Below, piece by piece: positions 18,993 to 63,841 of a DNA stretch of 64,000 bases. Under the pieces are notes generated by a model. The model did no database searches and had not been told where the DNA came from. It saw nothing but the letters and a program-made list of their open reading frames with translations. Source of the DNA: Ilex aquifolium (taxonomy: Eukaryota > Streptophyta > Magnoliopsida > Aquifoliales > Aquifoliaceae). The first letter of the stretch is position 1; every line of letters starts with the position of its first letter. Position numbers and translations under genes: made by a program. The DNA lies in contig OX637393.1 of assembly GCA_951799425.1 (NCBI GenBank), positions 22,361,744 through 22,425,743 of the forward strand. Direction: 5' to 3'.

Positions 18993-19107
18993 GTACCGGT
19001 ACTGGGTACCTGTACTGTATGGTACCGGTACTGTGTACCGGTACTCCCTTTCCAGTGGGTTGACAGTACCGGTACATAGGGGTACCGGTACGGTATGGTA
19101 CCGGTAC
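18993..19107. repeat. Palindrome array GTACCGGTAC in the T1 5' LTR
   Basis: Six perfect copies of the self-complementary 10-mer GTACCGGTAC lie at 18993, 19022, 19035, 19066, 19082 and 19098. A degenerate copy (GGGTACCTGTAC) lies between the first two. The array is preceded by 'actgggcagaga', and a 'tttccagtggg' spacer lies in its middle. Spacing is irregular. It is not CRISPR: there are no constant-length spacers. Confidence 0.95.
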
Positions 19108-19396
19108 TCTCTTCAAAATTTTCAGATTTTCACACTGCTTCGCCCTATTTTCAATCTACGTTTTCCTTCCCTCCAATGATGTAAATGGACTATAATGGAG
19201 TATAAATCATGGTATATTGAATATTGGTTGAATCCAAATGAATAATCGAATCCGGTTAACAATTGTGAATTAAGATCCCGGTTAAGGGGATGCTACTACC
19301 GTGGTGTTAGGTTGAGTGACATCCATGGGTATTTCCGCGGGTTGACGGATGGTCAACGGTTAATATAGGACCCCCAGAAATTGGGGCGTCACAGCT

Positions 19397-19408
19397 TGGT
19401 ATCAGAGC
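19397..19408 (+). other. Primer binding site of T1 (initiator Met tRNA)
   Basis: TGGTATCAGAGC lies 3 bp after the LTR end, complementary to the 3' end of plant initiator Met tRNA. Confidence 0.93.
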
Positions 19409-19750
19409 ATAGGTATGCGATTTACCTAGGGCTTGTTGGGGCATGGGTCTAGACCATTGCATACATTGTACATTACATGTTATGTGCTTAAATTGCTACA
19501 TGTTATGTGATATGTGATATGTGTATTATATGCATGATAGAATGTATATGGAAAATAGACACACTAGGGTTAGAGAACTTAACCTTGGGAGTGGGAAAGC
19601 AAATGAACGGGAAAGTTCAAAGAATAAATGTCTACTTTCGGAGACATACGCTCTACTAGTGAGACGATGAGAAAATTATAAATGTTTTAACTTTGGTCCC
19701 TACCTCGGGATACTAAGTTAGTGTGCCATTGCCATTTGACGTGTGTGTAG

Positions 19751-22700
19751 ATGGCGAGTGGGAGATGAGGACGTCGAGGCGGTGGGCGGAACAATAACCA
19801 ACCACCACCGGTCTTCGATCAACAAGCATTTACGGAAACCATGGGCATGATGGCGGCTACTGTTGCACAAGCTAGTGCAAATGCCGGGCATGGAGGCACG
19901 AGTAACCTCCAACTGTTTAAAGCACACAAACCTCCAGTTTTTATGGGAGGGGCGGACCCGATGGTGGCCGACCATTGGTTCCGGCAAGTCAATAAGAACT
20001 TAGGGGCGATGGAGGTCACCTCAGACGCTACTAAGATAAGACTAGCTGCATTCCAGCTAGAGGGAGAAGCCCAATTGTGGTGGGATTGGGTGACGGCCTC
20101 GAAGAACTTAGAGGCCATGACATGGGGAGAGTTTAAGGAACTCTTCATGGGTAAATATTTCCCAACGGCCGTTCGGCATGCAAAGGCCCGGGAATTTCTA
20201 GATTTGAAGCAAGGGTCAATGACGGTGATGGAGTATGTGGCTAAGTTCACCGAATTAGCCCGATTTGCTGATGATTACGTGGCCACGGATATGGCCAAGG
20301 TAAGAAGGTTTGAGGATGGGTTGAAGCTATCCATCCGGGGAAAGATTGTGGGCCTCCGCCTGCAAGACTTGGACTCTATGGTCGAGACAGCTATGGCCAT
20401 TGAGAGGGAGGTTGACGATGCACGAAACATCCGTAAGGCGGGTGCTAAGGATAAGAAGAAGGAGGGCCAATCCTCTTCTTCTAGTTCGGGGAAGAAGCAG
20501 CGGACTTCTACTCCACAAGGACAACAAGGACAGGGCCGTGGCTATCAAGGCCAAGGCCAAGGTCAATTTTCCCAGGGCGGGAGAAACTTCAGGACTACCC
20601 ACCAGGCAGGCCAGAAGATATGTTTCCATTGCCACCAACCGGGGCATATGAAGCGGGATTGTCCGCAGAGGCAAGGATCCCAGAGCTATGGGACACCTCA
20701 GTCCCAGTCATTAGTGGGACAATCGCAGACACACCTTGTTCCTCCCTACCCCACCATGGGCCGGGGAAGCCAGTATCAGTTCCAGGGCACTACTCAGGCC
20801 CCTACCACTTTTCGAGCGGGGACTCCGCAGTCGGGCCAGATGGGCCAAAGCATGGGTCGAGGCCGAGGACAGGGCATGCAGGCCGGGACTTCGGGGACCC
20901 AGGGGCGTGTCTACGCCATTACACCTCAGGCTGAGCCAATGGACCAGTCGGTCATTCAGGGTACATTTCTACTTTCTCGCTTATGGGCTAAAGTGTTATT
21001 TGACTCTGGTGCATCACATTCATTCATTTCTGCATCATGTGTGAGGGACTTGGGCTTAGAGGTTGATACCTTGGAAGAATCGTTATATGTGAATTCACCC
21101 CTAGGAGCTAGGGCGTGTGTGAATCAGATATGTCGGAATTGTGAGTTAGAGATCTCGGGGATTCTACTCACCGTGGACCTTAGGGTTATGGATATGTCAG
21201 AGTTTGATGTCATCCTTGGGATGGACTGGTTGGCGGCGCATCGGGTCGTTATTGATTGTGACAGGAAGAGGGTCACTGCCTATACACCAGACGGTGTTTG
21301 TTTCAAGTTTCAGGGGGAAAAGCATGATGCTTTGCCTCAAGTCGTGTATGATTCACGATGGCATGGGCAATTGATGGGTTGGCTTGCGAGCCTTACCCTG
21401 GAGGACGAGGCAAGACAAGAATTGGGTCTACCTCGGGTGGTGTGCGAGTATGAGGACGTTTTTCCGAACGAGTTACCGGGATTACCTCCCCATAGGGATG
21501 TGGACTTTAGCATTGAGTTGCATCTGGGTACTTCGCCCATTTCTATGACTCCACATAGGATGGCGCCAGCTGAGTTGCAAGAACTCAAGGTCCAATTACA
21601 AGAATTATTGGACAAGGGCTTTATTAGACCGAGTACCTCACCTTGGAGCGCTCCGGTGCTGTTTGCCAAGAAGAAGGATAAGACCCTTCGATTGTGTATA
21701 GACTATCGGCAGTTGAACCGGGTCACCATCAAGAATAGGTACCCTTTGCCGAGGATCGATGATCTGTTTGATCAGCTGAGGGGAGCGCGGGTCTATTCAA
21801 AGATAGATCTCCGCACAGGCTACCATCAGTTGAGAATTAGGGAGGCAGATATCCCTAAGACGGCGTTCAGAACGCGGTACGGGCATTTCGAGTTCACGGT
21901 GATGCCATTTGGGTTGACGAATGCCCCGGCGGCATTCATGGATCTCATGCATAGGGTGTTCCAGCCCTATTTAGATCAGTTTGTCGTAGTGTTTGTTGAT
22001 GACATCCTGATCTACTCCAAGACAGAGGAGGAGCATGAGGGTCACTTAAGGATTGTTCTCCAGACCTTGAGGGACCACCAGTTTTACGCCAAGTTCAGCA
22101 AGTGTGAATTTTGGCTTACGGAGGTGAAATTTTTGGGACACGTGGTGTCAGCTTCGGGGGTGTCAGTTGACCCGGAGAAGGTTGAGGCAGTTATGAGTTG
22201 GGAGAGGCCAAAGTCAGTCTTCGAGATACGTAGTTTCTTGGGATTGGCAGGGTATTACCGGAGGTTCATCGAGGACTTCTCCCGACTAGCCGCACCTATG
22301 ACTAGATTGACCCGGAAGGAGGTCAAGTTCGAGTGGAATGATTCGTGTGAGAAGGCATTCCAAGAACTAAAGAGGAGGCTCACTTCAGCTCCTATCTTGA
22401 TTGTTCCAGAGAGGGGGCAAAACTACACGGTGTATTGCGATACCTCCAAGGACAGACTGGGTTGTGTCTTGGTGCAGTCCGGGAGAGTGGTGGCTTATGG
22501 TTCTCGACAGTTGAAGAATCACGAGCAGAATTACCCTACGCATGATATGGAGTTGGCGGCCGTTGTCTTTGCCTTAAAGGCTTGGCGCCACTATTTGTAT
22601 GGTGAACAATTTGAGGTGTTTTCGGACCACAAAAGTCTGAAGTACATCTTCACTCAGCGGGACCTCAACATGAGGCAGCGTAGGTGGATGGAGTACCTAG

Positions 22701-24346: not shown

Positions 24347-24428
24347 TCATTTAGTGATATATGACTGTTGCATATGAATGTGGTTGTATGTGCATGATTG
24401 TGTGAATTTCGGGGACGAAATTCTTTTT

Positions 24429-24441
24429 AAGGGGGGAAGAA
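24429..24441 (+). other. Polypurine tract of T1
   Basis: AAGGGGGGAAGAA lies directly before the 3' LTR, after the phrase TTCGGGGACGAAATTC that T2 also has. Confidence 0.88.
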
Positions 24442-26895
24442 TGTAAAACCCGAGAAAATTTAAACTTTTGTGAAAAAGGGCAAAACGGTAAATTGTCACT
24501 ACGGTACAAGTTGTAAACCTGAATTTTTCTAGAACTCGGATGACGAAACGAACCTCACCGTTGGATTCGTCTCGCGAAAACTAGTTACCCTGTCAAATTT
24601 CATTAAATTCCGAGTTAGTCGGATTTTTTGCGTTTTACGAGGCGGTCGAGCCTCGGGAGACCCAAAAACGGAATTCTGAATAAAATTTTAAATTTTGGGA
24701 AATAAAGGATGGCAAGTTGAAATAAAAATATTTTGAACTTGAACCGAAGCGAAATTTAATCGTTTCGGGGTTAAAACGGACCCGGGAAATAAAGGCCGTG
24801 TGGCGCGTTGTGGGCCAAGTATTTAAAGGGTATTTAAAGGGGAGAAAATCAGATTTTCTCCCCATTTTGCTCAGCCGATTCCAACGTGAAAACAAGAGAG
24901 GGAAGCTAGGGTTTTTCTCCACCTTCTCTCTAAGATTCTCGTCTCCACGGGGCTCAAATCAACTCGGGCCAAGAACAAAGGTGGTTATACTCGCCGAGGG
25001 CTACGAAACCATACCAAGGGAGTCGAGTTTTGGAGCGATTCGAAGAACGAGATTTTGGGAAGCTAGGGCTTGGAGCTTGAATCGGGTCTTGGAGGCTTCC
25101 CAACGTTGTTCTCCATTCTTCAAGAGGTAGGGTTCCCTCCTACCAATGTTTATTCCACACCTAGAATGCTTAGGTGAAATGGGTAAATGAATAGATATAG
25201 ATATATGTGTATGTCATTTGCCTATGGTTGTGATATTGGATGAAATGGGTTGAAATCAATTCTAATTGAATTGGTAATTAGAAGTTTCTAAATGAAATTT
25301 CTAGGATAGAGTATATGAAATTAACCCAATGTGACTCTTGGGCTATGTGAAGTGTGGGCATGCTATGTGTTTATTTTATGCCTTGAAATTGAAGTGTGTT
25401 ATTTATTGATGATGTGATGACATACTTGGGTGTTAATCAAGATTAAATGTTGATATATATACATGCTTGTGATATATTGACATTGTAAGAAAGTATGGAA
25501 ATTATATGCTTATGATATGATTTTTCCATGAGGTGTGTGAATTGTGATGAGAATGTTCATATATCACTCATACCATATCGAACATTGTATTAATGTTGCA
25601 ATGGAGCATCACATTGCATATGCACGGGAACATCGCATTTAGTAGGTGTGTCTGCATGGTTGTTTGTCTTCACCACGCGTGGTGGATGACGAGTGGGCTC
25701 GGGTAATATGGGTCGATGACCTAGTCGAGTCGCATGGTTTATATGTTGATAGGGTTGGGGTAGCAAGAAGGGCTAGAAAATCCCTCGGGTGAGAGACCCG
25801 GTGATTGGAGACGCACTCCGTTGGTATAAGAGTCCATAAAGTGTGTCGGTGTACGCGGAACCGTTGGTGGAAGTCCATAAATTCCATGTAGGTTGGGTGA
25901 CATTTGGTGTGAGTCCATGAACATCCACCCCTATAAAGACCCTAGAATGAAAGGTCATTTGATGTGCAACATAAATGACGGATTTGTACACATTGGCACT
26001 TGCATGTGTAGAGGAGCCGGGAAGGGCTCGGTTAATATGCATGAGTGGGTCTCACCTCATTCCATAGCATGACATTGCAAATTCCATCATTGAATATATT
26101 TCCTTGCTTGGAATGTTATGAATTGTGGTTTTGTGGCATGTGAACATTTCATATGCATATAGGTTGGGGAGTAGCCTCATTAGGAGATACCCTATTGAGC
26201 GTGGCTCACCCTTTGTGGGAAAAACATTTCAGGTGCGAGGTTCACACCGGCGGACGGCTCCCGTTACGAGCCCCAAAGTTGAAGAAAGCCGACTTGTGGC
26301 TTTTATTGTTGTTTTGTAAAGTTTTTGTAAGAATTCCATTTTGATATGTAAATATATGGAATCAATTGTAATGGAACTTGTACAAACCATGTTTCATATG
26401 GAAATCCTTGTCAAACATGTATTTGATGAATTGGGAGAGGTTTTGAATGAATTGGAATTGAAAAATGGTTGAAAATGGCTAAACTGGGCAGAGAGTACCG
26501 GTACTGGGTACCTGTACTGTATGGTACCGGTACTGTGTACCGGTACTCCCTTTCCAGTGGGTTGACAGTACCGGTACATAGGGGTACCGGTACGGTATGG
26601 TACCGGTACTCTCTTCAAAATTTTCAGATTTTCACACTGCTTCGCCCTATTTTCAATCTACGTTTTCCTTCCCTCCAATGATGTAAATGGACTATAATGG
26701 AGTATAAATCATGGTATATTGAATATTGGTTGAATCCAAATGAATAATCGAATCCGGTTAACAATTGTGAATTAAGATCCCGGTTAAGGGGATGCTACTA
26801 CCGTGGTGTTAGGTTGAGTGACATCCATGGGTATTTCCGCGGGTTGACGGATGGTCAACGGTTAATATAGGACCCCCGGAAATTGGGGCGTCACA
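24442..26895 (+). repeat. T1 3' LTR (2454 bp)
   Basis: A near copy of 16939-19393, starting TGTAAAACCCGAG and ending GGGGCGTCACA, followed by the target duplication ATATT. Confidence 0.96.
26495..26609. repeat. Palindrome array GTACCGGTAC in the T1 3' LTR
   Basis: The same six perfect GTACCGGTAC copies and spacing as 18993-19107, as expected for a paired LTR. Confidence 0.95.
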
Positions 26896-32390: not shown

Positions 32391-34069
32391 TGCTTGTATG
32401 GTTTTCTCTAATCTCCAAACATGAACCCGGATTGTGTGTATATGGCTTATACGAGTTGCTGAATGTCACTCTCCCTCGGGGTTTTGCAAGAAATAGGGAA
32501 AATCATGTGTGTGAACAAAAACATGAGTGTGTGTGCAAAACTGCTCCCCAAGCGAAGAGAGACTTGCAATGTCGTGTATTACTTGGAATGGGTATTCCAA
32601 GGTCGTCTCCTCAGGGAAAGAAATGTCAAATTGCTTTGAAGGGTGCTTTGTAAAGAAATGAAAATTGGAAAATCTTGTGAATTGTGTTTTGGTGAGTTGT
32701 GTTTTGGTAAAAATGCAAGAAACCAAGGTTGGCTAATCCATAGAGGTCATTCCAATGGGAATGCAAAATCCACTTGATTCATTCATCCAATGGTGTCTTG
32801 GTGTTTGATTGATTCGTAGGAAGTGAGGGACTAATGTGGATGTGTTGGGCACAAGCATACCCCGTGACAAGTTTATGGTGTATCAAGAGCCCACAACCAC
32901 GTTCGCACTCAACCTAGTCAAACCAAACACTCTACACTACGAGGAAGAATGAAAAAGAGTCGATTTCACATACCCAAGAGGAAATTCCCCTTGGATTAGC
33001 CAACTAAAAGTCTAGCTACTCATAGTAAAAGCAAGAACCAACATAAGGTAAAGAGATATGGTAGTGAAATGAAGCATGAAACTTGTTTTGATGCAATAAA
33101 AGGTTTAAACTACAAGAGTAAATTCATTCCTACCCAAAATACAAACATTGAAGACAAAATACCCAAATGTAGAAATGGAAATGCTAGAGCACTTAACTAA
33201 GCTTGATTAAAATTTAAATAAAAGGGTTTAAACTGAAAGAGAGAAAAATTAAAAGTAATGTAAAGCTTACTACAATAAAAATGGTGAAGGAAATGTAAAA
33301 ATCCAACTTTCTCTCTCTACAACTCCATCTTCTACCTTGGAGCTTCTTTCACTAAAAGCGTGTAACAAATCTGAAAATGGTGTAAGACCTCTTAATTTTC
33401 GTCCATTCCTCTCTCGTAGCCTATTTGAACTGAGCTGCAATGAGTGGGGAGAGGTTGGACACTTGAACAAGCAAAAATAGGCCAAGCATGCTCCTCCCAT
33501 GCTTTCCTAACCACTCCTCTTCTCTCTCTCTCTCTTGAAATCTGACTTTTGGTGTTAGGAGAGCATCACGGGGTGTCAAATATGTCAGGGTATGATTTGG
33601 ATGGCAAGAGGTGGGCCCCCGGAGTAGGTGGAGTCATGTGAACATGCATCTGGCAAAACCTACCAGTAGAACGTAAGAAAACCTATCGGTAGGATTTTTC
33701 CAGTAAGCTTTTCTACCGGTAGGTTTTTGCATAGCTGAGGTAGAAGAATTCCAATAGCATTTTCTACCGGTAGGTTTTGACTAACTTCTACCGGTAGGTT
33801 TTGGCTGACTTCCACCGGTATGTTTTGTCTTGCATTGGGATTTCCTTAGTTCCTTGAGGTCCCAAGGCATCCGTTAAGCATTCCCTTCTTTCCCATTGCC
33901 TTTTAGCACTTTATGGGAGGCTTGATACATGACCTTCCCTGCTCTTTACCTACAATCACACGAATCTCCATTATTTTTGAGTTTGAAAGTATTTCCCCCA
34001 ATTTTCACCACAAAACAAGTAAAATGGATGCAAATGAGATACATGATATGAAATATTCTATACTCATCA
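32391..34069 (-). repeat. F2 LTR (about 1680 bp, Athila-like, minus-oriented)
   Basis: The plus strand starts TGCTTGTATGG and shares 'aatctccaaacatgaaccc' type phrases with the F1 LTRs (37769, 47039) and, reversed, with G. It ends ACTCATCA, followed by CACCTCCCAACTTGAG, a polypurine tract on the minus strand. That makes it the downstream LTR of a minus-strand element that extends to the right. It contains a CTACCGGTAG palindrome array. No partner LTR with a matching duplication was identified. Confidence 0.8.
33661..33835. repeat. Palindrome array CTACCGGTAG in the F2 LTR
   Basis: Three perfect CTACCGGTAG copies and three near copies (for example CTATCGGTAG) lie here, typically followed by GTTTTG. 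The leader 'ctggcaaaacc' precedes the first copy. Confidence 0.9.
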
Positions 34070-35674: not shown

Positions 35675-37518
35675 TAATGAGCGCATAATATTGCATATTT
35701 GAAGGGCTCATTACATGCATTATAACTCAACTTTTGCATATAAGTGCTTAGAAGTTAGCCGTTTTGAACTATAATGTTGATATTTTGATGTTGCAACCTT
35801 TTATAGCTTAAATGATTGATTTTAGGACATTGCAACCTTGATGGATGTGTGGTGAAGGCATGGACACAATACATGAAGAATTGGAGGCTTAAAAGTGAAG
35901 AAATCAAGAAGGCATTGGTGCTTGGGAACAAGGGCACCAGCTGCAGCAACAATTGGAAGCACTGCCTCATAAGTCCTCCATTTTGACCATGATCTACTCA
36001 GAATTTGGAAAATTTCAAAACATGAAAGTTGTAGATATGGGTGTCTTCTGTTTGGTGTCAAAATTTAAGCTCAATCCAACGGTTAGATCAAGAGTTATGC
36101 CAATTCTACCGAAGGTGGTCCAGTGCAGAAAAACAGTACCGGTACCAAATGGTACCGGTACCCAGTACCGGTACTCCGGACCTTCTGGTCGCGAAAACAG
36201 CCTGTAACTCAACTTTGAGGCTTGGGGGTCCCACCTACACTTCTCCCACGCCTATCCCAACATTTCCTTACACATTTACAGGCCTCCTACACTCAAGTGG
36301 AAGACTTTAAAGGCCAATGCATTAAAGGAGGAATGGGGGGAAGTGGACTGCCCAGGCTATGATCTCCTAGCCTGTCAAAGCCATCCATTCAGCCCTCTCT
36401 TGATGGGAGCTCGTACACACAGCTAGGGGGGAGCCTCTTGGACGTTTTGGCATGTCTCTACACACCATTATATTCAGCATTCCATTCATTTGTATAGAGT
36501 TGGCTACCTAAGCTTAGATATAGATATAGTTTTGCTCCAAAGAAGATGATGAATAGTAGCTACGTTTTTGCATTGTTTCCATCCGTTTTCGTCCCTGTAA
36601 GCTTTAATCTTCTTGTAATCTTCATTTCTTGCAATGTAATCTCATATATTTCAAGTTTATATCAAGTTTAGTTTAGTATCTTAGCTTTCACCATTGTTGC
36701 TTCAAGTTTTCTTCATTTCATCTTTTAAAATGGGTATTGTATTTCTTTCTTCTTAGTTTAAGATTTCTTGCATTTAGTTAAGTTCCATGCTTCATTTCTT
36801 CTACATGTCTTCCATTTACATTAATGTATTTCCTTTCAAGCATGAGTAGCTAGATTTAAGTTGGTTAATCCAAGGGAAAATTCCTCTTGGGAATACCATG
36901 TTCAAATCTTCTTCATTCCTCCCTTTAGAGTCAAATGGTTCGGTTTGACGGGGTTGAGAGTGGATGAGTTGGTGAGCCTTTGATATTCCGTAGGCCTAGT
37001 CACGGTTTATGCTTAGATACTCACCAATCTCATCCCTAGCTTCCCCCGAATCAATCGTTCATTCATGCTCAATCGGAGGAAGGCTTTGAGTTGATTTGGT
37101 ATTCCCATTGGAATGAACCCTTTGGATTAGCCAACACTTGCTTTCTTGCATTTTCATTTTGAACAAAACTCAACAAAACACAAATACAAGATTTTACACT
37201 TTCTTTTCTCTTTTTGCAAAATCACTTTCACAAAACTCCCTTTCCTTCCCTGAGGAGACGACCTTGGAATATTTTCCAAGTAAAACACACGACCACAAAA
37301 GACTCCTTTCGATTGGGGAGCATTTTTGTGCACACCGCATCTCATTCCATCTATTTTGTTCATCACATTTCCATTCACATCCATTTTGTTGTTGTTTCCT
37401 ATCTTCTTGCATCATCCGGAGGGAGAGTGACATTCCCCCATCACTATAAGCCACATACACACATTGAGGGTGAGGGTGATGTTACGAGGTTAGGAACGAC
37501 GTAATTTCCAATCAATCA
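35675..37518 (+). mobile_element. G: solo LTR of the F1-type family (1844 bp)
   Basis: It reads as the reverse complement of the F1 LTR: start TAATGAGCGCATAATATTGC (F1: TAATGAGCACATAATATTGC), middle 'cttgggggtcccacct', end 'ggaacgacgtaatttcc' then AATCAATCA. AAGAC flanks both sides and no internal region is present, so it is a solo LTR left by recombination between two LTRs. It carries a GTACCGGTAC array at 36136-36174. Frames within it are not supported as genes. Confidence 0.85.
36136..36174. repeat. Palindrome cluster GTACCGGTAC in solo LTR G
   Basis: Three perfect copies at 36136, 36152 and 36165, preceded by 'ggtccagtgcagaaaaaca'. This is the same palindrome as Tekay-like T1, in an Athila-like LTR whose relative F1 has CCTTCCGGAAGG instead. 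Confidence 0.93.
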
Positions 37519-37768: not shown

Positions 37769-39084
37769 TGCTTGATATTTTTCGTTGCGTTCCTAATCTC
37801 CGAACATGAACCCTCAATGTATATATGGCTTTTGTGTGTGGGTGAGTGTCACTCTCACTCGGGTTCGATGCAAGAAATTGAAAAACCGGTGTGTGGAATG
37901 AAATTTGTGTGTGTGTGTGTGAACAAAAGTGCTCCCCAAACGCAGAGAGACTTTCGAGTGTAGTGTTCTACTTGGTATTAAGTATTCCAAGGTCATCTCC
38001 TCAGGGAAAGAAGGAGAATTGTGTGAAGGTGATTTTGTGAAAATGGAAAAGTGTAAAAATCTTTTGATGTTTGAGTTTGGAGATTTGTGTTCTTGATGAA
38101 AATGAAATGGAAACAAGTGTTGGCTAATCCGAAGAGGTCATTCCAATGGGAATGCCAAATCAACTCAATACCTTCCTCCAATGGTGTCTAGATGTTTGAT
38201 TGATTCATAGGAAACACAGGACTAAAATGGAGGTGAGGAGTCAAGCATACACCGTGACAAGTCTACGGTGTATCTAGAACTCACAACCATGTCCACACTC
38301 AACCTAGTCAAACCAAATCAACGTACACAACGATGAGGAATGAAAATGAGTTGAAGTAGCACACCCAAGAAGAATTCTCCCTTGGATTAGCCAAATTAAA
38401 GCTTAGCTACTCATATTTAATGCAAGAACATAAGTGAGATTGAGAGACATAATGAAGAAATGAAGGTTGGAACTTAGTTTAATGCAAGAAAAGTTAACTA
38501 GGAAGAAAAACATTCAATACCCATTTTAAAACTTGAAGTGAAGAAAACTTAATACAACAATGGTGAAATCCAAAATGGATAACTAAACTTGCAATACTTT
38601 TGAAATAAATGACATTAAGTGCAATAAAGGAAGCTTACAAGAGTCTTATAGAAGATTACAAGTGAAAATGGGTAAAGGAAATGCAAAAATCTAACTTATC
38701 TCTCTAAAATTACTCCTAAGCTTAGGTAGCCTTCTCTTTCAATGTGAGTGTGAATGCTGAATATATGGTGAAAGACCTCTGCAATTTCGTCCATGGAGGT
38801 CCCCCCTAGGTGTGTGACAGGCCTCCCATCCATAGGAGGTGAGTTAATAGCTTGGACAGGCTAGGACAAGCCTAGCCTGCAACCCACCATGCCTCCATCT
38901 TTCTCTCTACTCCTCTCCCATCCTTCATCTTCCTTTGCTGACTTTGGGGTGTATGAGGCTTGCATATATGTAGAATATGTCAGGGGGCAAGTGGGAGAAT
39001 CATAGGTGGGACCCCCAAGCAAGTGGAGCATGAGTTGCAGGCTTTCTGGACATTCTGGGCAAAACCTTCTGGAAGGTCGACGTA
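37769..39084 (-). repeat. F1 3' LTR (partial)
   Basis: It starts TGCTTGATATTTTTCG on the plus strand and follows 47039-48350 closely, including a (GT)n stretch near 37905-37920 and the 'tctgggcaaaacc' leader. One palindrome-like unit, CCTTCTGGAAGG, lies at 39065-39076. Confidence 0.85.
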
Positions 39085-41918: not shown

Positions 41919-41922
41919 GAAA

Positions 41923-41934
41923 TGGTATCAGAGC
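41923..41934 (+). other. Primer binding site of N1 (initiator Met tRNA)
   Basis: TGGTATCAGAGC lies 4 bp after the LTR end. Confidence 0.92.
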
Positions 41935-44435: not shown

Positions 44436-44446
44436 AAGGGGGGTGG
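44436..44446 (+). other. Polypurine tract of N1
   Basis: AAGGGGGGTGG lies immediately before the 3' LTR start. Confidence 0.85.
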
Positions 44447-44448
44447 AT

Positions 44449-46190: not shown

Positions 46191-46191
46191 C

Positions 46192-47038: not shown

Positions 47039-48918
47039 TGCTTGATAGTTTCCGTTGCGTTCCTAATCTCCGAACATGAACCCTCAATGTGTATATGGCT
47101 TTTGTGTGTGGGTGAGTGTCACTCTCACTCAGGTTCGATGCAAGAAATGGGAAAACGGGTGTGTGGAATGAAATTTGTGTGTGTGTGTGAACAAAAGTGC
47201 TCCCCAAGAGCAGAGAGACTTTCAAGTGTCGTGTTTTACTTGGAATTAAGTATTCCAATGTCGTCTCCTCAGGGAAAGAAGGTGAATTGTGTGAAGGTGA
47301 TTTTCTGAAAATGGAAAAGTGTAAAAATCTTTTGATGTTTGAGTTTGGAGATTTGTGTTCTTGATGAAAATGAAATGGAAACAAGTGTTGGCTAATCCGA
47401 AGAGGTCATTCCAATGGGAATGCCAAATCAACTCAAGAACTTCCTCCAATGGTGTCTAGATGTTTGATTGATTCATAGGAAGCGCGGGACTAAAATGGAG
47501 GTGAGGAGTCAAGCATACATCATGACAAGTCTACGGTGTATCAAGAACTCACAACCATGTCTACACTCAACCTAGTCAAACCAAATCAACGTACACTATG
47601 AGGAGGAATGAAAATGAGTTGAAGTAGCACACCCAAGAAGAATTCTCCCTTGGATTAGCCAACTTAAAGCTTAGCTACTCATATTTAATGCAAGAACATA
47701 AGTGAGAGAGAGAGACATAATGAAGAAATGAAGGTTGGAACTTAGTTTAATGCAAGAAAAGTTAACTTGGAAGAAAGACATTCAATACCCATTTTAAAAC
47801 TTGAAGTGAAGAAAACTTAATACAACAATGGTGAAATCCAAAATGCATAACTAAACTTGCAATACTCTTGAAATAAATGACATTAAGTGCAATAAAGGAA
47901 GCTTACAAGAGTCTTATAGAAGATTACAAGTAGAAATGGGTAAAAGAAATGCAAAAAGCTAACTTATTTCTCTAAAACTACTCCTAAGCTTAGGTAGCCT
48001 TCTCTTTCAATGTGAGTGTGAATGCTGAATATATGGTGAAAGACCTCTGCAATTTCGTCCATGGAGGTCCCCCCTAGGTGTGTGATAGGCCTCCCATCCA
48101 TAGGAGGTGAGTTAATAGCTTGGACAGGCTAGGACAAGCCTAGCCTGCAACCCACCATGCCTCCATCTTTCTTTCTCCTCCTCTCCCATCCTTCATCTTC
48201 CTTTGTTGACTTTGGGGTGTAGGAGGCTTGTATATATGTAGAATATGTCAAGGGGCAAGTGGGAGAATCATAGGTGGGACCCCCAAGCAAGTGGAGTATG
48301 AGTTGCAGGCTTTCTAGACATTCTGGGCAAAACCTTCCGGAAGGTTGACGTAAACCTTCCGGAAGGTTTATTGCAGTAGGCTAAACCCTTCGGAAGGTCT
48401 TCCGGAAGGTGACAGCTCCAGACCAGGTTTCTTAGAATTGCCATAACTTTTGATCCAACCATCCGATTGGGTTGAAATGTTGAAACAATATCGAGGACAT
48501 CTAGATCTACAAAGTTCATGTTTTGCACTTTTTCAGATTCGAAGTGGATCATGGTCAAAAATGGTAAAAACAGAAGGTCATGCAAACAGAAGGTCATGTT
48601 TTGCATTTTTTCAATTCCAGTGCGCTAAACCTTCCGGAAGGTCGATGAAAACCTTCCGGAAGGTTCTCTTCCAAATGCATTTTTCTTGATTTCTTCACCT
48701 TCCAAGCCTCCCAATCCTCATGTAATGTGTCCATCTCTTCACCACTCATCCTCACTTAGCTACAGGGTTCCAAAATCCTTCATTTACGCTATGATTATCT
48801 GCAACATCAAAATTTCAACATTATTCATAACTTTGGCTAACTCTAAGTAATTAAATGCAAAATTAAGTAAAAATGCATGTAATGAGACGGTTAAATATGC
48901 AATATTATGTGCTCATTA
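47039..48918 (-). repeat. F1 5' LTR (1880 bp)
   Basis: The plus strand starts TGCTTGATAG and ends TGTGCTCATTA, then ATGAG. It carries CCTTCCGGAAGG units in two groups, with the 'gttatgg' and 'tttgtagatc' phrases (on the minus strand) between them. Confidence 0.88.
48333..48663. repeat. Palindrome units CCTTCCGGAAGG in the F1 5' LTR
   Basis: Perfect copies lie at 48333, 48355, 48630 and 48652, with near copies around 48386 and 48399. The leader is 'ttctgggcaaaa', and 'ttccagtgcgctaaa' precedes the second group. Confidence 0.93.
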
Positions 48919-48923
48919 ATGAG

Positions 48924-50239
48924 TAAAGAATGTGAAGGGTTTCCCCAAAAATTCTAATTTAAACCCACGTTTTTGAATTTCTGGGCAAAACCTACCGGTA
49001 GAACAGTGCACTGGAAAAAATCTACCGGTAGGTTTTTGCAAATTTCTACCGGTAGGTTTCAGCTTTTTCAAAAAAAATTCTTGTGCCCCATTCCTCACCT
49101 CCACTCCAAGTTTATTCAAGTCCCACACAATCTAATGACCTATTTACAACCTCAACTCCCAAAAAAAAACTGACCCATGCAAGTGAACCACAAATGTGTG
49201 ACCATGCCCAAATTTATTTACGAAATTGCAATGCGATTTAAGTTTTGATGTTTTCAAACACATGACATGAAATTCTAAATTCAACAAACAAAATGAGCAC
49301 GCAATATATAAAGCGCAAATTGAAATACGAAAGGCATTCCTATTCCTTTCTCATATCTAAAGTTTGAGCAATATTCCCCTATCCTACAAGCATAGGGTTG
49401 TCTGATGATACTTTTCAAACACCCGAACTAAGCACACATGAACTTCATCATGACTTTAAATGCTATTCTAGAGTACACACCTACACATTTGTTTTCAAAC
49501 TCGTGTGTGTGTGAAATTGAACATATAATTTAAGCATTTACTCAACGGAATCCACATTCCACATTCACCTAGCCATCCAAATTCAACTTTGATGCAAAAC
49601 TCATCAAGGGTTTCTCTCAAAAATGAAAGACTCTAATTATCCTGGTATGCTCTTCATGTGTATATGTGAGATAGAATCTTGTGCACAAACCAAAATGCTA
49701 ACATATAATTCACAAATAATATGCATGCAAAATAATTGAAACGACCTTGGCATAATCTCATGAATGGAATGTTAGGGCACTAGATAGCAAAACCAACTTT
49801 TCCTTTTCATTTGAAGTGTGATCTCACCATGCTTTCTCTAGATCATTTAGGGCTTTCTCTAAATCAGTTAGGGCTCTCACGGGTTGTAATGAGGCATTGG
49901 GGTGATATTAAGGGTAAGTGAAACGAAGGGTAGAGGATGACAAAAAGGGTTATTCCGAGGGCATGACCTTTATTATCAAAAATTTCCTTTTTTTGGAATT
50001 TTCAGCCTTACCCCTTCTCTTCACTTTTTTTCTTTTCTTTTCTTCTTCTTTCCTCAACATTTCTTTTCCTTTTTCTTTCTTTTCTTTTTCAACCCCCTTT
50101 TTCTCCTTTTTCTTGGATTTTCCTCTTCTTTTCCATTCAAAATTTTCAATTCAGCACCATTTATCCCTTTTTGTTGGGTTTCCTCACTAGATTTCGTTTC
50201 CTTTATGATCAATCAAAGTCAGTCTCGAAACAACCAAGG
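48924..50239 (-). other. Old internal sequence of another Athila-like element, with a palindrome cluster
   Basis: With F1 removed this follows 37768. 48992-49055 is a palindrome cluster. 49410-49975 closely parallels the F1 3' region 39290-39811, so it is retrotransposon 3' sequence. 49980-50190 is CT-rich and low in complexity, like 13250-13420 of A3. No gene is seen. Exact element edges cannot be set. Confidence 0.5.
48992..49055. repeat. Palindrome cluster CTACCGGTAG
   Basis: Three perfect copies at 48992, 49022 and 49046. The leader is 'ttctgggcaaaac', and 'cagtgcactgg' lies between the first two. Confidence 0.93.
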
Positions 50240-50423: not shown

Positions 50424-50757
50424 ACATTCGAACGCTAATCCACGTTCGAACGTTCTCTTGAATTATTTGAAGACCATACTACTGAAGTGCTGATACATGG
50501 CGTGTTGCAGCTAGGAAGAAAAACACAGAGGTACTTGAGTACCACGTTCGAACGCCAATCCACGTTCGAACATTGTCCTAAATTATTGAGGACCAGGCTA
50601 CTGAGTGCAAGGGCAATGATACATGGCATGTGGAAGTTGCTCTCACAGAAGAACACAAGCCACTTGAGTAAGAGGTTCAAACTCCATGTAGCGTTTGAAC
50701 GCCCATCAGGCAAAGACATGAGACAACGTTCGAACGCTAACTAACGTTCAAACGTTG
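50424..50757. repeat. Palindrome pairs ACGTTCGAACGT
   Basis: Eight units in four pairs near 50424/50442, 50543/50562, 50672/50691 and 50725/50743. All are variants of ACGTTCGAACGT. Within a pair, the units are separated by a short phrase such as CTAATCC. Confidence 0.88.
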
Positions 50758-50870: not shown

Positions 50871-50879
50871 TATAAATAC
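50871..50879 (+). promoter_or_regulatory. Likely TATA box of LTR I
   Basis: TATAAATAC follows a pyrimidine-rich stretch and precedes 'tcccattgtgggagcttc'. A promoter role is inferred. Confidence 0.5.
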
Positions 50880-53294: not shown

Positions 53295-53684
53295 TGTAAA
53301 ACCCGAGAAAATTTCAACCTTTGTGAAAAAAGGGCAAAACGGTAAATTGCCACTACAGTACAGGTTGTAAACCTGAATTTTTCTAGAACTCGGATGACGA
53401 AACGGACCTCACCGTTGGATTCGTCTCGCGAAATCTAGTTACCACGTCAAATTTCGTGGAATTCTGAGATAGTCGGATTTTTCGCGTTTTACGAGACGAA
53501 CGGGCCCCGGGTGACCCCGTACACGAAATTTTTTATAAAATTTCCAAGTTTGGGGAAATATTAGAGACAAGTGAAATAAAAATAATTTAAACTTAAATCG
53601 GGACGAAATTTAATCGTTTCGGGGTTAAAACGGACCCGGAATTAAATAGGACGGGTGGCGAATTGTGGGCCAAGTATTCTAAAA

Positions 53685-53693
53685 TATAAATAG
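53685..53693 (+). promoter_or_regulatory. TATA box of the T2 5' LTR
   Basis: TATAAATAG followed by GGGG and a CT-rich region. The same box is at 61474-61482 in the 3' LTR. Confidence 0.65.
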
Positions 53694-55458
53694 GGGGAAA
53701 AATTAGATTTTTCCCCATTGTTCAGCCGGTTTCAGCCGATAGAAAAGAGGAGAGGGAGAGAGCTTGAAGTCTTTACTTCTCTCTACGATCTAGAAGGCTA
53801 CGAAGCTCGGATCCATTCGGGCCAAGAAGTAAAGTCGGTCTCCTCGTCGAAGGCTACGACCACGTACCAAAAACGAGGGTTTTCACCGAAGGAAAAAGGG
53901 GCGGGATTTTGAGAGCTTAAGATTGGGCTCGGGTTTGAGTTCTAAGAGCTTCTCCACGTCGTTCCTCACGCTTCAAGAGGTAGAGTTCCTTCCTACTTGG
54001 GATTATTTTACAACTTAGGTTGTTATATGTAATGTGAATGTAGTATAATGGGCATGTTGATTATCAATGTTGTGAAATTGATGGGTAGTTGGATAAGTTC
54101 ATTATCAATGACTTGTTGTTGAGAAATTGATGGAATTTGGTGATGGGTAAAACGGGTATATGAAATTAACCCAATTTAAGTGAAATCCCTAACTTGGGAA
54201 GTGATGGGTTGCAATTGTTTGTGTAAATCCATGGAATAGTGTGGTGGGCATGAATTGTGATTATCATGCGGGCATGTGAAATTGCTCTAATGTGAAATTA
54301 TGTGAATTATTGGCATATGCTATGGGATGATATGTTTGTAAATAAATGTTGAGTATGAAAAAGATAAGTTATGTTAATTGATATATTGACATGGCTATGA
54401 AGTTGGTAATTATATGCTTAGGATATAAATTGATATGATTATGTTAGAATAAGATAAATGTTGCTCACATGGCATTCATTACATGGGGCATGACATTGAA
54501 GTAGTATTGGTGCATTACAATGCATGTGTACACAAACATCGCATTATGGGTGTGGGTGCATGGTTGAGTTCAAACACCACATAGGTGGATGATGGTGGGC
54601 TCGGGAAAGTTGGATTGAACATCCGGCTGAGTCTCATGGTTCATGGAAAAAGGAATTTGGGTCGGGGTAATAAGAAGGGCTAGACTCGCCCTCGGGTGTG
54701 AGACCCGGTGTGACGGATACGCACTTCCGTTGGTATCATAGTCCATAAAGTGTGTCGGTGTACGCGGAACCGTTGGTGGAAGTCCATGAATTCCGTGTCG
54801 GTTGGGCGACCGTTGGTGCAAGTCCATAAAGACCCACCCCAAAGAAAGACCCGGGTGTTTTAAATGATAGTCATTGTGTGTGAATTAACAATGGCGGGGG
54901 CTTGGGAAAGCCCGATTTTAAACTCATGGCATTGTATGGGGGATAGGAGCCGGTGAGGGCTCGGATTGAGTTGCATGGGAGAGTCTCATCCCATTTCATG
55001 GCATTACATGCTAGAAATCCAACATTTGAATAGTATGTTGTGGTTGTGATGTTGTTGGTGTGAAGTGTTGCATGAACATTGCATATGCACTTAGGTTGGG
55101 GAGTAGCCCTTGTAGGAAATACTCTACTGGGCGTGGCTCACCCTTTATGGGAAACATATTTCAGGTACGGGACACCCCTTCGAGGAAGGACCTTATATGG
55201 GACCCCAAGGATGAAGAAAGCCGGAATGTGGCTTCTATTTTGAAGTTGTGTAAAACTTTTGACAAACACATACGTTGGCTTGTAAATATATGAAAATTCC
55301 GCTTTTGATGTGTAAATATATGGAATTGTACGCTATGGAACTTGTATAGAACATGTATAATGTAGAAAATATAGTTATACATGTTTGGGATGGAATTGGA
55401 ATGGTTTTGGTTGAATTGGAATTGAAAAATTAAACTAAGGAAGAAATTCTGGGCAAAA

Positions 55459-55811
55459 CCCTCCGGAAGGTCACTAACACCTTCCGGAAGGTTAGGGCAG
55501 AATTGAGATCCAGAAGGTAAAACCTTCCGGAAGGTTGAGTACATCTTCCGGAAGGTCGACACGTTTCATTTTCAATCTATTTTCCAGAAGGCAAAACCTT
55601 CCGAAAGGTGAAGAAAAACCTTCCGGAAGAACCTTTCCAGTGAGTAAAACCTTCCGGAAGGTTGAGTACATCTTCCGGAAGGTCGACACGTTTCATTTTC
55701 AACTCATTTTCCAGAAGGCAAAACCTTCCGGAAGGTAAAGAGAAACCTTCCGGAAGAACTTTTTCAGTAAGCAAACCTTCCGGAAGGTTGAGTCAAAAAC
55801 CTTCCGGAAGG
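55459..55811. repeat. Palindrome array CCTTCCGGAAGG in the T2 5' LTR
   Basis: Twelve units over 353 bp, six of them perfect (for example 55480, 55523, 55800), the rest with one or two changes. The leader is 'ttctgggcaaaa'. The spacers include 'tttccagtgagtaaaa' and a repeated 'cgacacgtttcattttcaa'. Confidence 0.96.
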
Positions 55812-56050
55812 TTCTCCAAAAACTTGAAATTTTCAAAATGCTTAGCCATGTTTTTGGGCTTTGTTTTCTTTGGCTCCTGTGACATAAATGGACATAAATC
55901 GAGGTATAATTGACCTTGTGGATAGTAAATCTGATTAAAAGCATGTGAGTGACGTGGTGTCGGGTTATACGACTATCACGAGTATTTCCGCGGGTTGACG
56001 GATGGTCAACGGTTAATAAAGGACCCCCGGAAATTTGGGGCGTCACAGCT

Positions 56051-56062
56051 TGGTATCAGAGC
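56051..56062 (+). other. Primer binding site of T2 (initiator Met tRNA)
   Basis: TGGTATCAGAGC lies 3 bp after the LTR end. Confidence 0.95.
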
Positions 56063-56403
56063 ATAGGTATGCGATTTACCTAGGGCTTGATGGGGCATGG
56101 GTTTAGACCATTGCATTCATTGTACATTACATGTTATGTGCTTAAATTGCTACAAGTTATGTGATATGTGGTATGTGTATTATATGCATGGTAAAATGTG
56201 TATGGAAATGGACACACTAGGGTTAGAGAACTTAACCTTGGGAGTGGGAAAGCAAATGAACGGGAAGGTTCAAAGCGAAAGGGTCCACTATTGGAGGCAT
56301 ACGCTCTACTAGTGAGACAATGAGAAAGATTTGAGCGTTTTAACTTTGATCCCTATCTAGGGATACTAAGTTGTTGTGCCATTGCCATTTGACTTGTGTG
56401 TAG

Positions 56404-59400: not shown

Positions 59401-60989
59401 GCACTTAGTCGAAAGTCACGGGGTGTCTTAGCTAGTGTGGCTTCCCGGGAGTGGCGGATGCTTGAGGTCGTGGGCCAATTTGGGCTGCATTATCGGGGTC
59501 GGACTCAGGGTGTTTTAGGGAGTTTGGTGGCTACGCCTTCCCTACTGAGCAGAGTGATCGAGTCACAGAGACAGGACTCAGAGTTATCATCCATCAGGGA
59601 CCGAGTGCAGGCGGGTACTGGTGACGAGGGCTGGGCCATTCACTCGGATGACAGTCTTCGGTTTAGGGGAAGGGTAGTGGTTCCCCAGTCGGCGGAGCTG
59701 AGAGAGGAGATCCTCAGGGAGTTTCATTGCTCTCGTTTTGCGGTGCACCCAGGCGGCACGAAGATGTATCATGATCTTCGTCGCCAGTATTACTGGAGCG
59801 GAATGAAGAGGCAAATTGGCGACTTTGTCAGTAGATGCCTCACATGTCAGCAGATTAAAGCCGAGCACCAGAGGCCAGCAGGGTTGCTCCAGCCCTTGGA
59901 AGTGGCTGAGTGGAAGTGGGAGCACATCACAATGGACTTTGTGACCCACTTGCCACGGACATCACGGGGACATGATGCGGTGTGGGTGATAGTGGACCGG
60001 CTTACGAAGTCGGCACACTTTTTGACGGTGCGGATGACCTTCACTCTGGAGGAATTCTGCAGGTTGTACATAAGGGAGATAGTCCGGTTGCATGGGGTAC
60101 CCGTGTCTATAGTATCGGATCGGGATCCCAGGTTTACGGCTCACTTTTGGGAGAGTTTCCAGCGAGCCATGGGGACTCAGTTGAGGATGAGCACAGCCTA
60201 CCATCCCCAAACGGACGGTCAGTCGGAGAGGACCATCCAGACATTAGAGGACATGCTACGGGCATGCGTCCTAGATCTCAAGGGTAACTGGGAAGAGCAT
60301 TTCCCTTAGTGGAATTCGCCTACAATAACAGTTATCAGGCGAGCATACGGATGGCACCCTATGAGGCGCTTTATGGGAGGCCTTGTCGTTCTCCGGTTTG
60401 TTGGACTGAAGTTGGGGAAAGACCCTCTACGGGTCCAGACTTGATTAGAGACACCTCGGAGAAGGTGAACCTGATAAGGAAGCGTCTTCTCACGGCTCAG
60501 AGCCGGCAGAAGAGTTACGCCGATAGGCGGCGGCGGCCTCTGGAATTTGAGGTGGGAGACCACGTCTTCTTAAAGGTGATGCCTAAGAGAGGGGTGATCA
60601 GATTCGGCAAGCGGGGAAAACTGTCGCCGAGGTATATTGGGCCCTTTGAGGTGCTTGAGAGAGTTGGCACTGTGGCTTACAGATTGGCGTTACCGCCAAC
60701 TTTATCGGGTGTTCACGCCGTATTCCATGTCTCCATGCTCCGGAAGTATACTCCAGATCCGACGCATGTTGTGGATTGGGGCGAGCTCATAGTTGATGCG
60801 GATGGGACCTTCGAGGAGGGACCAGTGCGTGTCATGGATAGCCGAGAGCAGGTTTTGCGAGGCAAGACCGTGAGGCTAGTGAAGGTGTTGTGGCAGCACC
60901 GAGGAGTGGAGGAGGCAACGTGGGAGCGTGAGGACACCATACGTGCCAACTATCCTTTCTTATTTGAGGATGGAGGTACATTCTTATAG
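56404..60989 (+). pseudogene. T2 gag-pol polyprotein region (Tekay/Del-like, about one break)
   Basis: It starts [19 protein letters not shown]. Approximate residues: gag domain 70-200 ([23 protein letters not shown]), Gly/Gln-rich linker 230-285, zinc knuckle [14 protein letters not shown] 287-300, protease DSGASHSF near 414, and RT with [20 protein letters not shown] near 640 and catalytic [10 protein letters not shown] near 745. RNase [14 protein letters not shown] is near 893 with DALSRK after it. Integrase has its zinc region near 1115 ([18 protein letters not shown]) and core [15 protein letters not shown] and [11 protein letters not shown]. The end has a GPF module (PRYIGPFEVLERVG) and a chromodomain-like VKVLWQHRGVEEATWERED. 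This is the chromovirus order; the chromodomain is known in the clade to guide integration towards marked chromatin. Almost the same as T1. Confidence 0.97.
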
Positions 60990-61070
60990 TCATTTAGTAT
61001 TATATGACTGTTGCATATGCGTGTAATTGTGTGTGCATGAGTGTATGAATTTCGGGGACGAAATTCTTCT

Positions 61071-61083
61071 AAGGGGGGAAGAA
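61071..61083 (+). other. Polypurine tract of T2
   Basis: AAGGGGGGAAGAA lies just before the 3' LTR, after TTCGGGGACGAAATTC. Confidence 0.9.
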
Positions 61084-61473
61084 TGTAAAACCCGAGAAAA
61101 TTTCAACCTTTGTGAAAAAAGGGCAAAACGGTAAATTGCCACTACAGTACAGGTTGTAAACCTGAATTTTTCTAGAACTCGGATGACGAAACGGACCTCA
61201 CCGTTGGATTCGTCTCGCGAAATCTAGTTACCACGTCAAATTTCGTGGAATTCCGAGATAGTCGGATTTTTCGCGTTTTACGAGACGAACGGGCCCCGGG
61301 TGACCCCGTACACGAAATTTTTTATAAAATTTCCAAGTTTGGGGAAATATTAGAGACAAGTGAAATAAAAATAATTTAAACTTAAATCGGGACGAAATTT
61401 AATCGTTTCGGGGTTAAAACGGACCCGGAATTAAATAGGACGGGTGGCGAATTGTGGGCCAAGTATTCTAAAA

Positions 61474-61482
61474 TATAAATAG
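61474..61482 (+). promoter_or_regulatory. TATA box of the T2 3' LTR
   Basis: TATAAATAG, the copy of the 53685 box. In principle it could drive transcription outward into A4 sequence. Confidence 0.6.
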
Positions 61483-63247
61483 GGGGAAAAATTAGATTTT
61501 TCCCCATTGTTCAGCCGGTTTCAGCCGATAGAAAAGAGGAGAGGGAGAGAGCTTGAAGTCTTCACTTCTCTCTACGATCTAGAAGGCTACGAAGCTCGGA
61601 TCCATTCGGGCCAAGAAGTAAAGTCGGTCTCCTCGTCGAAGGCTACGACCACGTACCAAAAACGAGGGTTTTCACCGAAGGAAAAAGGGGCGGGATTTTG
61701 AGAGCTTAAGATTGGGCTCGGGTTTGAGTTCTAAGAGCTTCTCCACGTCGTTCCTCACGCTTCAAGAGGTAGAGTTCCTTCCTACTTGGGATTATTTTAC
61801 AACTTAGGTTGTTATATGTAATGTGAATGTAGTATAATGGGCATGTTGATTATCAATGTTGTGAAATTGATGGGTAGTTGGATAAGTTCATTATCAATGA
61901 CTTGTTGTTGAGAAATTGATGGAATTTGGTGATGGGTAAAACGGGTATATGAAATTAACCCAATTTAAGTGAAATCCCTAACTTGGGAAGTGATGGGTTG
62001 CAATTGTTTGTGTAAATCCATGGAATAGTGTGGTGGGCATGAATTGTGATTATCATGCGGGCATGTGAAATTGCTCTAATGTGAAATTATGTGAATTATT
62101 GGCATATGCTATGGGATGATATGTTTGTAAATAAATGTTGAGTATGAAAAAGATAAGTTATGTTAATTGATATATTGACATGGCTATGAAGTTGGTAATT
62201 ATATGCTTAGGATATAAATTGATATGATTATGTTAGAATAAGATAAATGTTGCTCACATGGCATTCATTACATGGGGCATGACATTGAAGTAGTATTGGT
62301 GCATTACAATGCATGTGTACACAAACATCGCATTATGGGTGTGGGTGCATGGTTGAGTTCAAACACCACATAGGTGGATGATGGTGGGCTCGGGAAAGTT
62401 GGATTGAACATCCGGCTGAGTCTCATGGTTCATGGAAAAAGGAATTTGGGTCGGGGTAATAAGAAGGGCTAGACTCGCCCTCGGGTGTGAGACCCGGTGT
62501 GACGGATACGCACTTCCGTTGGTATCATAGTCCATAAAGTGTGTCGGTGTACGCGGAACCGTTGGTGGAAGTCCATGAATTCCGTGTCGGTTGGGCGACC
62601 GTTGGTGCAAGTCCATAAAGACCCACCCCAAAGAAAGACCCGGGTGTTTTAAATGATAGTCATTGTGTGTGAATTAACAATGGCGGGGGCTTGGGAAAGC
62701 CCGATTTTAAACTCATGGCATTGTATGGGGGATAGGAGCCGGTGAGGGCTCGGATTGAGTTGCATGGGAGAGTCTCATCCCATTTCATGGCATTACATGC
62801 TAGAAATCCAACATTTGAATAGTATGTTGTGGTTGTGATGTTGTTGGTGTGAAGTGTTGCATGAACATTGCATATGCACTTAGGTTGGGGAGTAGCCCTT
62901 GTAGGAAATACTCTACTGGGCGTGGCTCACCCTTTATGGGAAACATATTTCAGGTACGGGACACCCCTTCGAGGAAGGACCTTATATGGGACCCCAAGGA
63001 TGAAGAAAGCCGGAATGTGGCTTCTATTTTGAAGTTGTGTAAAACTTTTGACAAACACATACGTTGGCTTGTAAATATATGAAAATTCCGCTTTTGATGT
63101 GTAAATATGTGGAATTGTACGCTATGGAACTTGTATAGAACATGTATAATGTAGAAAATATAGTTATACATGTTTGGGATGGAATTGGAATGGTTTTGGT
63201 TGAATTGGAATTGAAAAATTAAACTAAGGAAGAAATTCTGGGCAAAA

Positions 63248-63600
63248 CCCTCCGGAAGGTCACTAACACCTTCCGGAAGGTTAGGGCAGAATTGAGATCC
63301 AGAAGGTAAAACCTTCCGGAAGGTTGAGTACATCTTCCGGAAGGTCGACACGTTTCATTTTCAATCTATTTTCCAGAAGGCAAAACCTTCCGAAAGGTGA
63401 AGAAAAACCTTCCGGAAGAACCTTTCCAGTGAGTAAAACCTTCCGGAAGGTTGAGTACATCTTCCGGAAGGTCGACACGTTTCATTTTCAACTCATTTTC
63501 CAGAAGGCAAAACCTTCCGGAAGGTAAAGAGAAACCTTCCGGAAGAACTTTTTCAGTAAGCAAACCTTCCGGAAGGTTGAGTCAAAAACCTTCCGGAAGG
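63248..63600. repeat. Palindrome array CCTTCCGGAAGG in the T2 3' LTR
   Basis: The same twelve units as 55459-55811. Confidence 0.96.
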
Positions 63601-63841
63601 TTCTCCAAAAACTTGAAATTTTCAAAATGCTTAGCCATGTTTTTGGGCTTTGTTTTCTTTGGCTCCTGTGACATAAATGGACATAAATCGAGGTATAATT
63701 GACCTTGTGGATAGTAAATCTGATTAAAAGCATGTGAGTGACGTGGTGTCGGGTTATACGACTATCACGAGTATTTCCGCGGGTTGACGGATGGTCAACG
63801 GTTAATAAAGGACCCCCGGAAATTTGGGGCGTCACACGACC

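Follow-up and report, generated by a model that had tools for sequence, protein, structure and literature searches.

Short palindromes repeated within the long terminal repeats (LTRs) of plant retrotransposons are known from the Sireviruses, the SIRE clade of Ty1/copia. According to the accessible parts of the Sirevirus study (Bousios et al., 2010; PMC2829016), these LTRs carry a palindromic, CpG-rich repeated motif (RM) upstream of the TATA box. The RM is element-specific and present in at least eight copies per element (LTR plus linker) that are commonly more than 85% identical; it forms a CpG island, recurs before the env-like gene and has a core CGG...CCG signature, absent in Tnd-1. Near-identical motifs were reported in very diverged elements, no common binding factor was found, and the RM was described as a Sirevirus feature not shared with classic Ty1/copia. 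In maize, Sirevirus LTRs contain a highly variable, palindrome-rich cis-region that is a small-RNA hotspot (Bousios et al., 2016, as cited in the available parts of PMC5311732 and PMC10760457), and their motif also occurs in Helitrons (PMC10760457, in part). Here we describe arrays of 10-bp palindromes in the LTRs of Ty3/gypsy elements in Ilex aquifolium, within a window of 64,000 nt (the whole stretch analyzed, on contig OX637393.1) that repeat and domain scans indicate to be plant-type DNA rich in LTR retrotransposons. The arrays lie in two chromovirus-like elements (T1 and T2), in an apparently OTA (Ogre/Tat/Athila)-like LTR (F1, which also holds an array designated K) and its relatives (Fp, F2 and G), and in a further element, I. 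Judged from sequence, they are probably arrays of sites in U3, the unique 3' region of the LTR, for one or more dimeric host DNA-binding proteins, and have probably been exchanged between LTR families as cassettes.

The arrays are real and exceed chance. A motif-free scan for recurrences of the same 10-bp palindrome (at least four G/C, at least three copies, gaps of at most 250 bp) returned nine clusters, all belonging to four types with a central CG: GTACCGGTAC (GTAC), CTACCGGTAG (CTAC), CTTCCGGAAG (CTTC) and CGTTCGAACG. One hundred dinucleotide shuffles yielded three clusters in total, even at a laxer threshold of at least two copies. The window contains 90 qualifying palindromes, whereas the shuffles averaged 31.7 and never exceeded 47, and CG is at the center of 49 of the 50 within array spans versus 4 of the 40 outside. 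We then accepted as units all words within two mismatches of one of these types, counting one LTR each for T1 and T2, which gave 7 units in T1, 14 in T2, 6 in F1, 3 in K, 6 in F2, 3 in G, 1 in Fp and 7 in I. Every unit of an array is nearest to one single type. Direct look-up bore out the palindromes that an earlier note on this DNA had located, and its claim that units agree within an element holds for each array; it fails for the F1 LTR, which has two types. The palindrome that the note gave for I, ACGTTCGAACGT, occurs only once; the unit there is CGTTCGAACG.

The types fall into three classes, of which class C, CGTTCGAACG, is confined to I. Class A, GTACCGGTAC, occurs in T1 and G, with 13 or 16 bp at 7 of its 8 intervals. 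Class B shares the core TWCCGGWA and comes in two forms: B1 (T then A) in T2, F1a, F1b and Fp, with many units extended to AACC...GGTT, and B2 (A then T) in F2 and K. The two arms change together. At positions 3 and 8, all 21 B1 units have T/A and all 9 B2 units have A/T, although some T2 units are tandem copies. An HSF-like reading of class B1 (TTCnnGAA) was dropped, as this motif is missing from classes A and C. Beside the G array, at 36106-36115, stands a degenerate word whose arms are mixed, CTACCGAAGG, possibly a fossil of an older palindrome type. Slippage and unequal exchange could spread a single functionless unit through an array, and the 127-bp repeat of T2 and the 13/16-bp periods of T1 are consistent with such copying. 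Yet pairwise unit identity is 0.87-1.00 in the palindrome versus 0.33-0.56 in the 6+6 flanking columns (Fp left out; the choice of units favors the palindrome), all 30 class B units have matching arms where the letter was switched, and the types are common to unrelated LTRs. Copying by itself does not maintain dyads, and we regard neutral concerted evolution as quite improbable.

Palindrome type does not follow the relationships of the LTRs. The GTAC type is common to chromovirus-like T1 and OTA-like G, and the CTTC type to T2 and OTA-like F1; a blastn comparison of array-masked T1 and T2 LTRs with those of F1, G, F2 and I found no significant similarity (best E 0.21). T1 and G have the same unit order and spacing (10-3-10-6-10) and agree in 12 of 18 inner non-palindrome columns, a level reached in 8 of 20,000 random placements. 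Conversely, the LTRs of T1 and T2 are homologous, with arrays at the same place between matching flanks, yet their types differ. Two register-matched units surround a 21-nt spacer that is identical at 14/21 positions (14 of 20,000 random placements were as good, the pair being picked post hoc). F1a and G likewise differ in type between flanks that match at 66% on the TATA side and 77% on the other. Finally, a single LTR can carry two types, as F1 does with CTTC arrays (F1a and F1b) and the CTAC array K. This last result contradicts the proposal of the earlier note that the palindrome differs by element, and all three kinds of case speak against its idea that each family has its own code. Because arrays at the same place differ in type and arrays in different families share it, descent of a cassette with exchange between families would explain the pattern more simply than convergence under one host factor. 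The same observations bear on an RNA dimerization or packaging code, one per family, to which palindromes able to self-pair would be suited. Types cross lineages, differ between homologous LTRs and coexist in one LTR, and the presumed U3 position discussed below would keep the array outside the 5' RNA leader, the usual location of dimer sites in retroviruses. We consider such a code highly improbable.

A leader sequence accompanies several of the arrays. The exact 14-mer TTCTGGGCAAAACC occurs five times in the 64 kb (twice in T2 and once each in F1, Fp and K), and each copy directly precedes a first unit, which in Fp is a lone decayed one. The earlier note had described this leader as shared; it is exact in these LTRs, shortened to CTGGGCA in T1 and to CTGGCAAAACC in F2, and missing from G and I. 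Its claim of conserved spacers applies to the leader and a few phrases, and most spacer letters are not conserved. Among the phrases, CCAGTG has 7 of its 21 occurrences inside nine array spans (1,860 of 64,000 bases, with the I span left out), two of the seven being second LTR copies. Relative to the TATA-like word, the leader stands on the far side of the array in T2 and on the near side in F1, so inversion of the module appears to be tolerated. Outside the window, matches to the leader pattern (48 stretches in records of prokaryote genomes, 14 in viral contigs) were judged by titles and names and not used. Two array patterns matched 8 and 43 stretches in viral contigs. In 31 of the latter every spacing is divisible by three, as in coding repeats, and no plant LTR was recognized among the contexts inspected (8 of 8 and 6 of 43). 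One viral contig (L046, 4223-4381, 34% GC) has 13 TACCGGTA words at mostly alternating 13/11-bp spacing, with no link to the window seen.

TATA-like words lie downstream of the arrays in T1, F1 and I (Table 1), which suggests, for these LTRs at least, that the arrays belong to U3 and precede the start of transcription. T2 has near-tied words at offsets 69, 79 and 91, bringing the number of LTRs with a downstream TATA-like word to four. T1/T2 and F1/Fp are homologous pairs, and the TATA-like evidence accordingly spans three lineages. For F1, the offset refers to a corrected orientation: the primer-binding site (PBS) complement at 47018 puts the LTR on the minus strand.

From the array anatomy, the sharing of types, the symmetric switching and the TATA-like words, we infer protein binding, promoter function, the U3 assignment and exchange, together with its direction and mechanism. 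The arrays would be U3 cis-regulatory modules, made of dyad-symmetric, CG-centered sites that precede a TATA-like word by roughly 70-120 bp. Their most likely binding partners are one or more dimeric DNA-binding proteins of the host, which would help the LTR promoter to fire or to stay open. Palindrome, spacing and leader would tend to move jointly, and recombination may have swapped this cassette between unrelated families, namely chromovirus-like T1/T2 and the OTA-like F and G elements. Within a class, the half-site letter would have been switched symmetrically in all units, as expected if the sites follow a changed specificity of their reader or its replacement by a related one. The earlier note had wavered between a site for a dimeric DNA-binding factor and a dimerization code in RNA. 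The former fits, because the dyads are perfect, the sites are many, TATA-like words are close by in four LTRs, the leader can stand on either side and the Sireviruses offer a parallel; the latter is unsupported.

Several results weigh against the reading of the arrays as exchanged U3 sites. TATA-like words are common: scored with our own weights, 2,000 random stretches of 260 nt gave a median best score of 5.3 and a 90th percentile of 8.8. The best T2 score, 5.3, equals this median, and that of F1 (6.8) falls between the 75th and 90th percentiles. In F2 (1.8) and G (2.1), both below the 10th percentile, there is no convincing TATA-like word after the array. The array-side flank of F2 is only 55% identical to F1, near the level of a forced alignment. 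Spacing in B1 and B2 is loose, with 12 of 25 intervals at 21-24 bp and the others at 12 to 51 bp plus one of 232 (F1a to F1b), which argues against a strict cassette, and the T2 array grew in part by a 127-bp duplication. The sample is also small, comprising about six array loci in three LTR lineages of a single window.

The central CGs allow an alternative in which an array-bound protein keeps U3 unmethylated. In the VANDAL DNA transposons, VANC target motifs form short noncoding arrays whose C-type and T-type variants accumulate as sets per subfamily (Hosaka et al., 2017; PMC5735166, in part). The arrays described here resemble them in this set-wise change of motif. VANDAL motifs differ in having one orientation and an element-encoded reader; ours are dyads without orientation, located in retrotransposon LTRs and common to several families. 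Older LTRs retain CpG in their arrays. The observed/expected (o/e) ratio in F1 is 0.35 outside and 1.10 inside, and in I, F2 and G it is 0.22-0.46 outside and 0.84-1.06 inside. The central CG is intact in 40 of 47 units (T1 6/7, T2 12/14, F1 6/6, K 3/3, F2 5/6, G 3/3, I 5/7, Fp 0/1). Thus F1 and K together keep 9/9, while among the 33 CpG sites present in F1 or Fp outside the array 13 are kept in both and 20 differ. Against this alternative, the young T1 and T2 have no such contrast (0.83 inside vs 0.88 outside, and 0.89 vs 0.95), the comparison is partly circular in that a CG palindrome defines the arrays, the sole Fp unit has lost its CG, and the scan of ORFs, which was not exhaustive, turned up no reader gene. 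The sequences give a hint of protection or selection of array CpG in old copies, a weak one because CG defines the arrays and F1 and Fp are perhaps not a simple LTR pair. On balance, anti-silencing sites seem an unlikely explanation.

Sirevirus palindrome regions, as small-RNA hotspots, also evolve fast (PMC5311732 and PMC10760457, in part), which raises a further alternative. Array transcripts could fold and feed the production of small interfering RNAs, so that the dyads matter as RNA and palindrome turnover represents escape from small-RNA matching. The three arrays that we folded do so better than dinucleotide shuffles (T1, z -6.3, 0/200 as good; T2, -10.1, 0/100; I, -4.2, 1/100). Repeated palindromes fold strongly anyway, and we judge that these z-scores do not discriminate between the readings. 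A feature that merely invites silencing should disappear, and the model leaves unexplained why the dyads are exact and their central CG constant. We find this hairpin model rather improbable, about on a par with anti-silencing.

By comparison with the Sirevirus RM, as presented in the accessible parts of PMC2829016, the arrays are alike in anatomy, with a short palindrome repeated in the LTR and near-uniform within an array. TATA-like words follow the array in four LTRs, in T2 with a score no better than the median of random stretches, and F2 and G have no convincing one. On sequence grounds the arrays are nonetheless not members. Their hosts are Ty3/gypsy elements, of what appear to be two lineages, rather than Ty1/copia (T1 and T2 by their domains, and by the PBS TGGTATCAGAGC, TGGCGCCGTTGCCGGGG and TGGCGCCG), and the CGG...CCG signature is replaced by overlapping CCGG in classes A and B and by TTCGAA, with a TCGA center, in class C. 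Only T2, with 14 units, clearly reaches the Sirevirus copy number of at least eight; T1 has 7, the F1 LTR 9 of two types, and F2, G and I, each a partial or single LTR, have 6, 3 and 7. As for the CpG island of the RM, the arrays have CpG o/e ratios of 0.83-1.10, which in T1 and T2 do not exceed the rest of the LTR. Same-site type switching between relatives and a cross-lineage leader do not appear in those parts of the RM paper. As in maize Sireviruses, judging from the parts of PMC5311732 and PMC10760457 available, palindrome clusters occupy what is probably the regulatory part of the LTR and vary in sequence. Tnt1, another Ty1/copia element, has repeated or symmetric regulatory U3 sequences in its U3 repeats and box I (PMC3601003 and PMC2829016, in part); the arrays are similar in having repeated, symmetric words, probably in U3, and differ in host, a comparison made by description only. 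Palindromes at insertion targets (PMC6911290, in part) were dropped as a parallel, being a weak preference at insertion flanks and not LTR arrays. Palindrome arrays in Ty3/gypsy elements, their sharing across lineages and symmetric block switching appear to be new. Among the openly licensed literature matches listed, the palindrome strings returned no retrotransposon paper by title, and no title described such arrays in Ty3/gypsy LTRs, from which absence does not follow.

Table 1. Positions of the palindrome arrays, their host elements and associated signals in the window
Feature	Position	Strand	Details
T1 element	16939-26895	+	chromovirus-like Ty3/gypsy
T1 5' LTR	16939..19393	+	partner LTR 24442-26895, 99.1% identical; PBS TGGTATCAGAGC at 19397; ATATT on both outer flanks
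T1 array	18993..19107	+	class A; 7 units, 6 perfect GTACCGGTAC; intervals 13,16,13,31,16,16
T1 TATA-like word	19201..19207	+	TATAAAT; offset 93 past array
T1 3' LTR array copy	26495..26609	+	0 of 21 inter-LTR substitutions inside
F2 array	33660..33821	-	class B2; 6 units, 3 perfect
G array	36136..36174	+	class A; 3 perfect GTACCGGTAC; flanks match those of F1a
Fp	37769-39817	-	piece related to F1
Fp unit	39066..39075	-	lone decayed class B1 unit behind exact leader
F1 LTR	47039 to about 49979	-	PBS complement starts at 47018 (TGGCGCCGTTGCCGGGG); upper end judged by eye
F1 TATA-like word	48230..48236	-	TATATAC; offset 97 downstream of F1a, sense orientation
F1a array	48334..48408	-	class B1; leader 48321-48334
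F1b array	48631..48665	-	class B1; two units
K array	48992..49055	-	class B2, CTACCGGTAG; three units, within F1 LTR; leader 48979-48992
I array	50425..50754	+	class C; 7 units (3 perfect CGTTCGAACG, 4 with one mismatch); three pairs at 18-bp interval
I TATA-like word	50871..50877	+	TATAAAT; offset 116 past array
T2 element	53295-63836	+	chromovirus-like Ty3/gypsy
T2 5' LTR	53295..56047	+	partner LTR 61084-63836, 99.89% identical; PBS TGGTATCAGAGC at 56051; CGACC on both outer flanks
T2 leader	55447..55460	+	exact match to TTCTGGGCAAAACC
T2 array	55460..55813	+	class B1; 14 units, 10 perfect CTTCCGGAAG; partly 127-bp tandem duplication
T2 3' LTR array copy	63249..63602	+	0 of 3 inter-LTR differences inside

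The assignment of the hosts draws on domains and primer sites. T1 and T2 encode gag-pol domains including Retrotrans_gag and RVT_1, plus SH3_Tf2-1, and their Chromo matches are weak (E 0.0041 and 0.0034, sub-cutoff in Pfam terms). We take their PBS letters to fit tRNA-Met. Chromoviruses have a chromodomain and, in most cases, a tRNA-Met PBS, which non-chromoviruses do not use (PMC6317226, in part). F1 and I would be OTA-like as judged from the primer site alone, I having a PBS-like TGGCGCCG at 52056 and a Retrotrans_gag frame after it. No Pfam match was obtained in 7 ORFs scanned, out of 23 listed for 30000-53290, and searching public collections with a 665-aa pol sequence yielded no relative. 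F2 and G are further F1-related pieces, G in the opposite orientation, and the F2 LTR body is 74% identical to F1 over about 1 kb.

The related LTRs differ along their length. Over the stretch that starts at the 5' LTR end and takes in the coding region, T1 (19300-25143) and T2 (55953-61785) are 92% identical; their U3 regions are mostly about 58-78% identical, but 94% at the LTR start. The F1 LTR (47039-49979) and Fp (37769-39817) form a mosaic with the array at the joint. Divergence is 4% downstream of the array (53/1316) and 16% upstream (96/595), and about 990 bp of F1 is swapped for about 130 bp in Fp, with the break shortly past the first palindrome. F1 and Fp may therefore not be a simple LTR pair. 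Next to Fp, at 39817-45045, is a nested element whose direct repeats (39817-40401 and 44448-45045) are 94.6% identical; the scan for palindromes found no array there. Elsewhere in the window, three related copies of 182-bp tandem repeats (5429-5757, 10989-11317 and 28189-28517) have single TACCGGTA words nearby, without arrays.

A wider reading, which we offer tentatively and think possible rather than probable, is that unrelated Ty3/gypsy lineages of one plant genome exchange by recombination a promoter module (array, spacing and leader) whose 'lock' letters can be changed, and that its half-site is rewritten symmetrically and array-wide when the host reader, an activator or a protector from silencing, changes. 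If so, retrotransposon promoters would preserve a record of past DNA-binding specificities of the host, and families in competition would either share one reader or escape it. Were the pattern to hold genome-wide, it would provide a natural experiment on block-wise change of specificity in cis-regulatory sites, and palindrome type on the LTR tree would become a simple table that can be checked in any plant genome. It would also extend a Sirevirus feature to two Ty3/gypsy lineages and inform our view of how unrelated retrotransposons recombine their U3 modules, and of the host proteins on which they depend.

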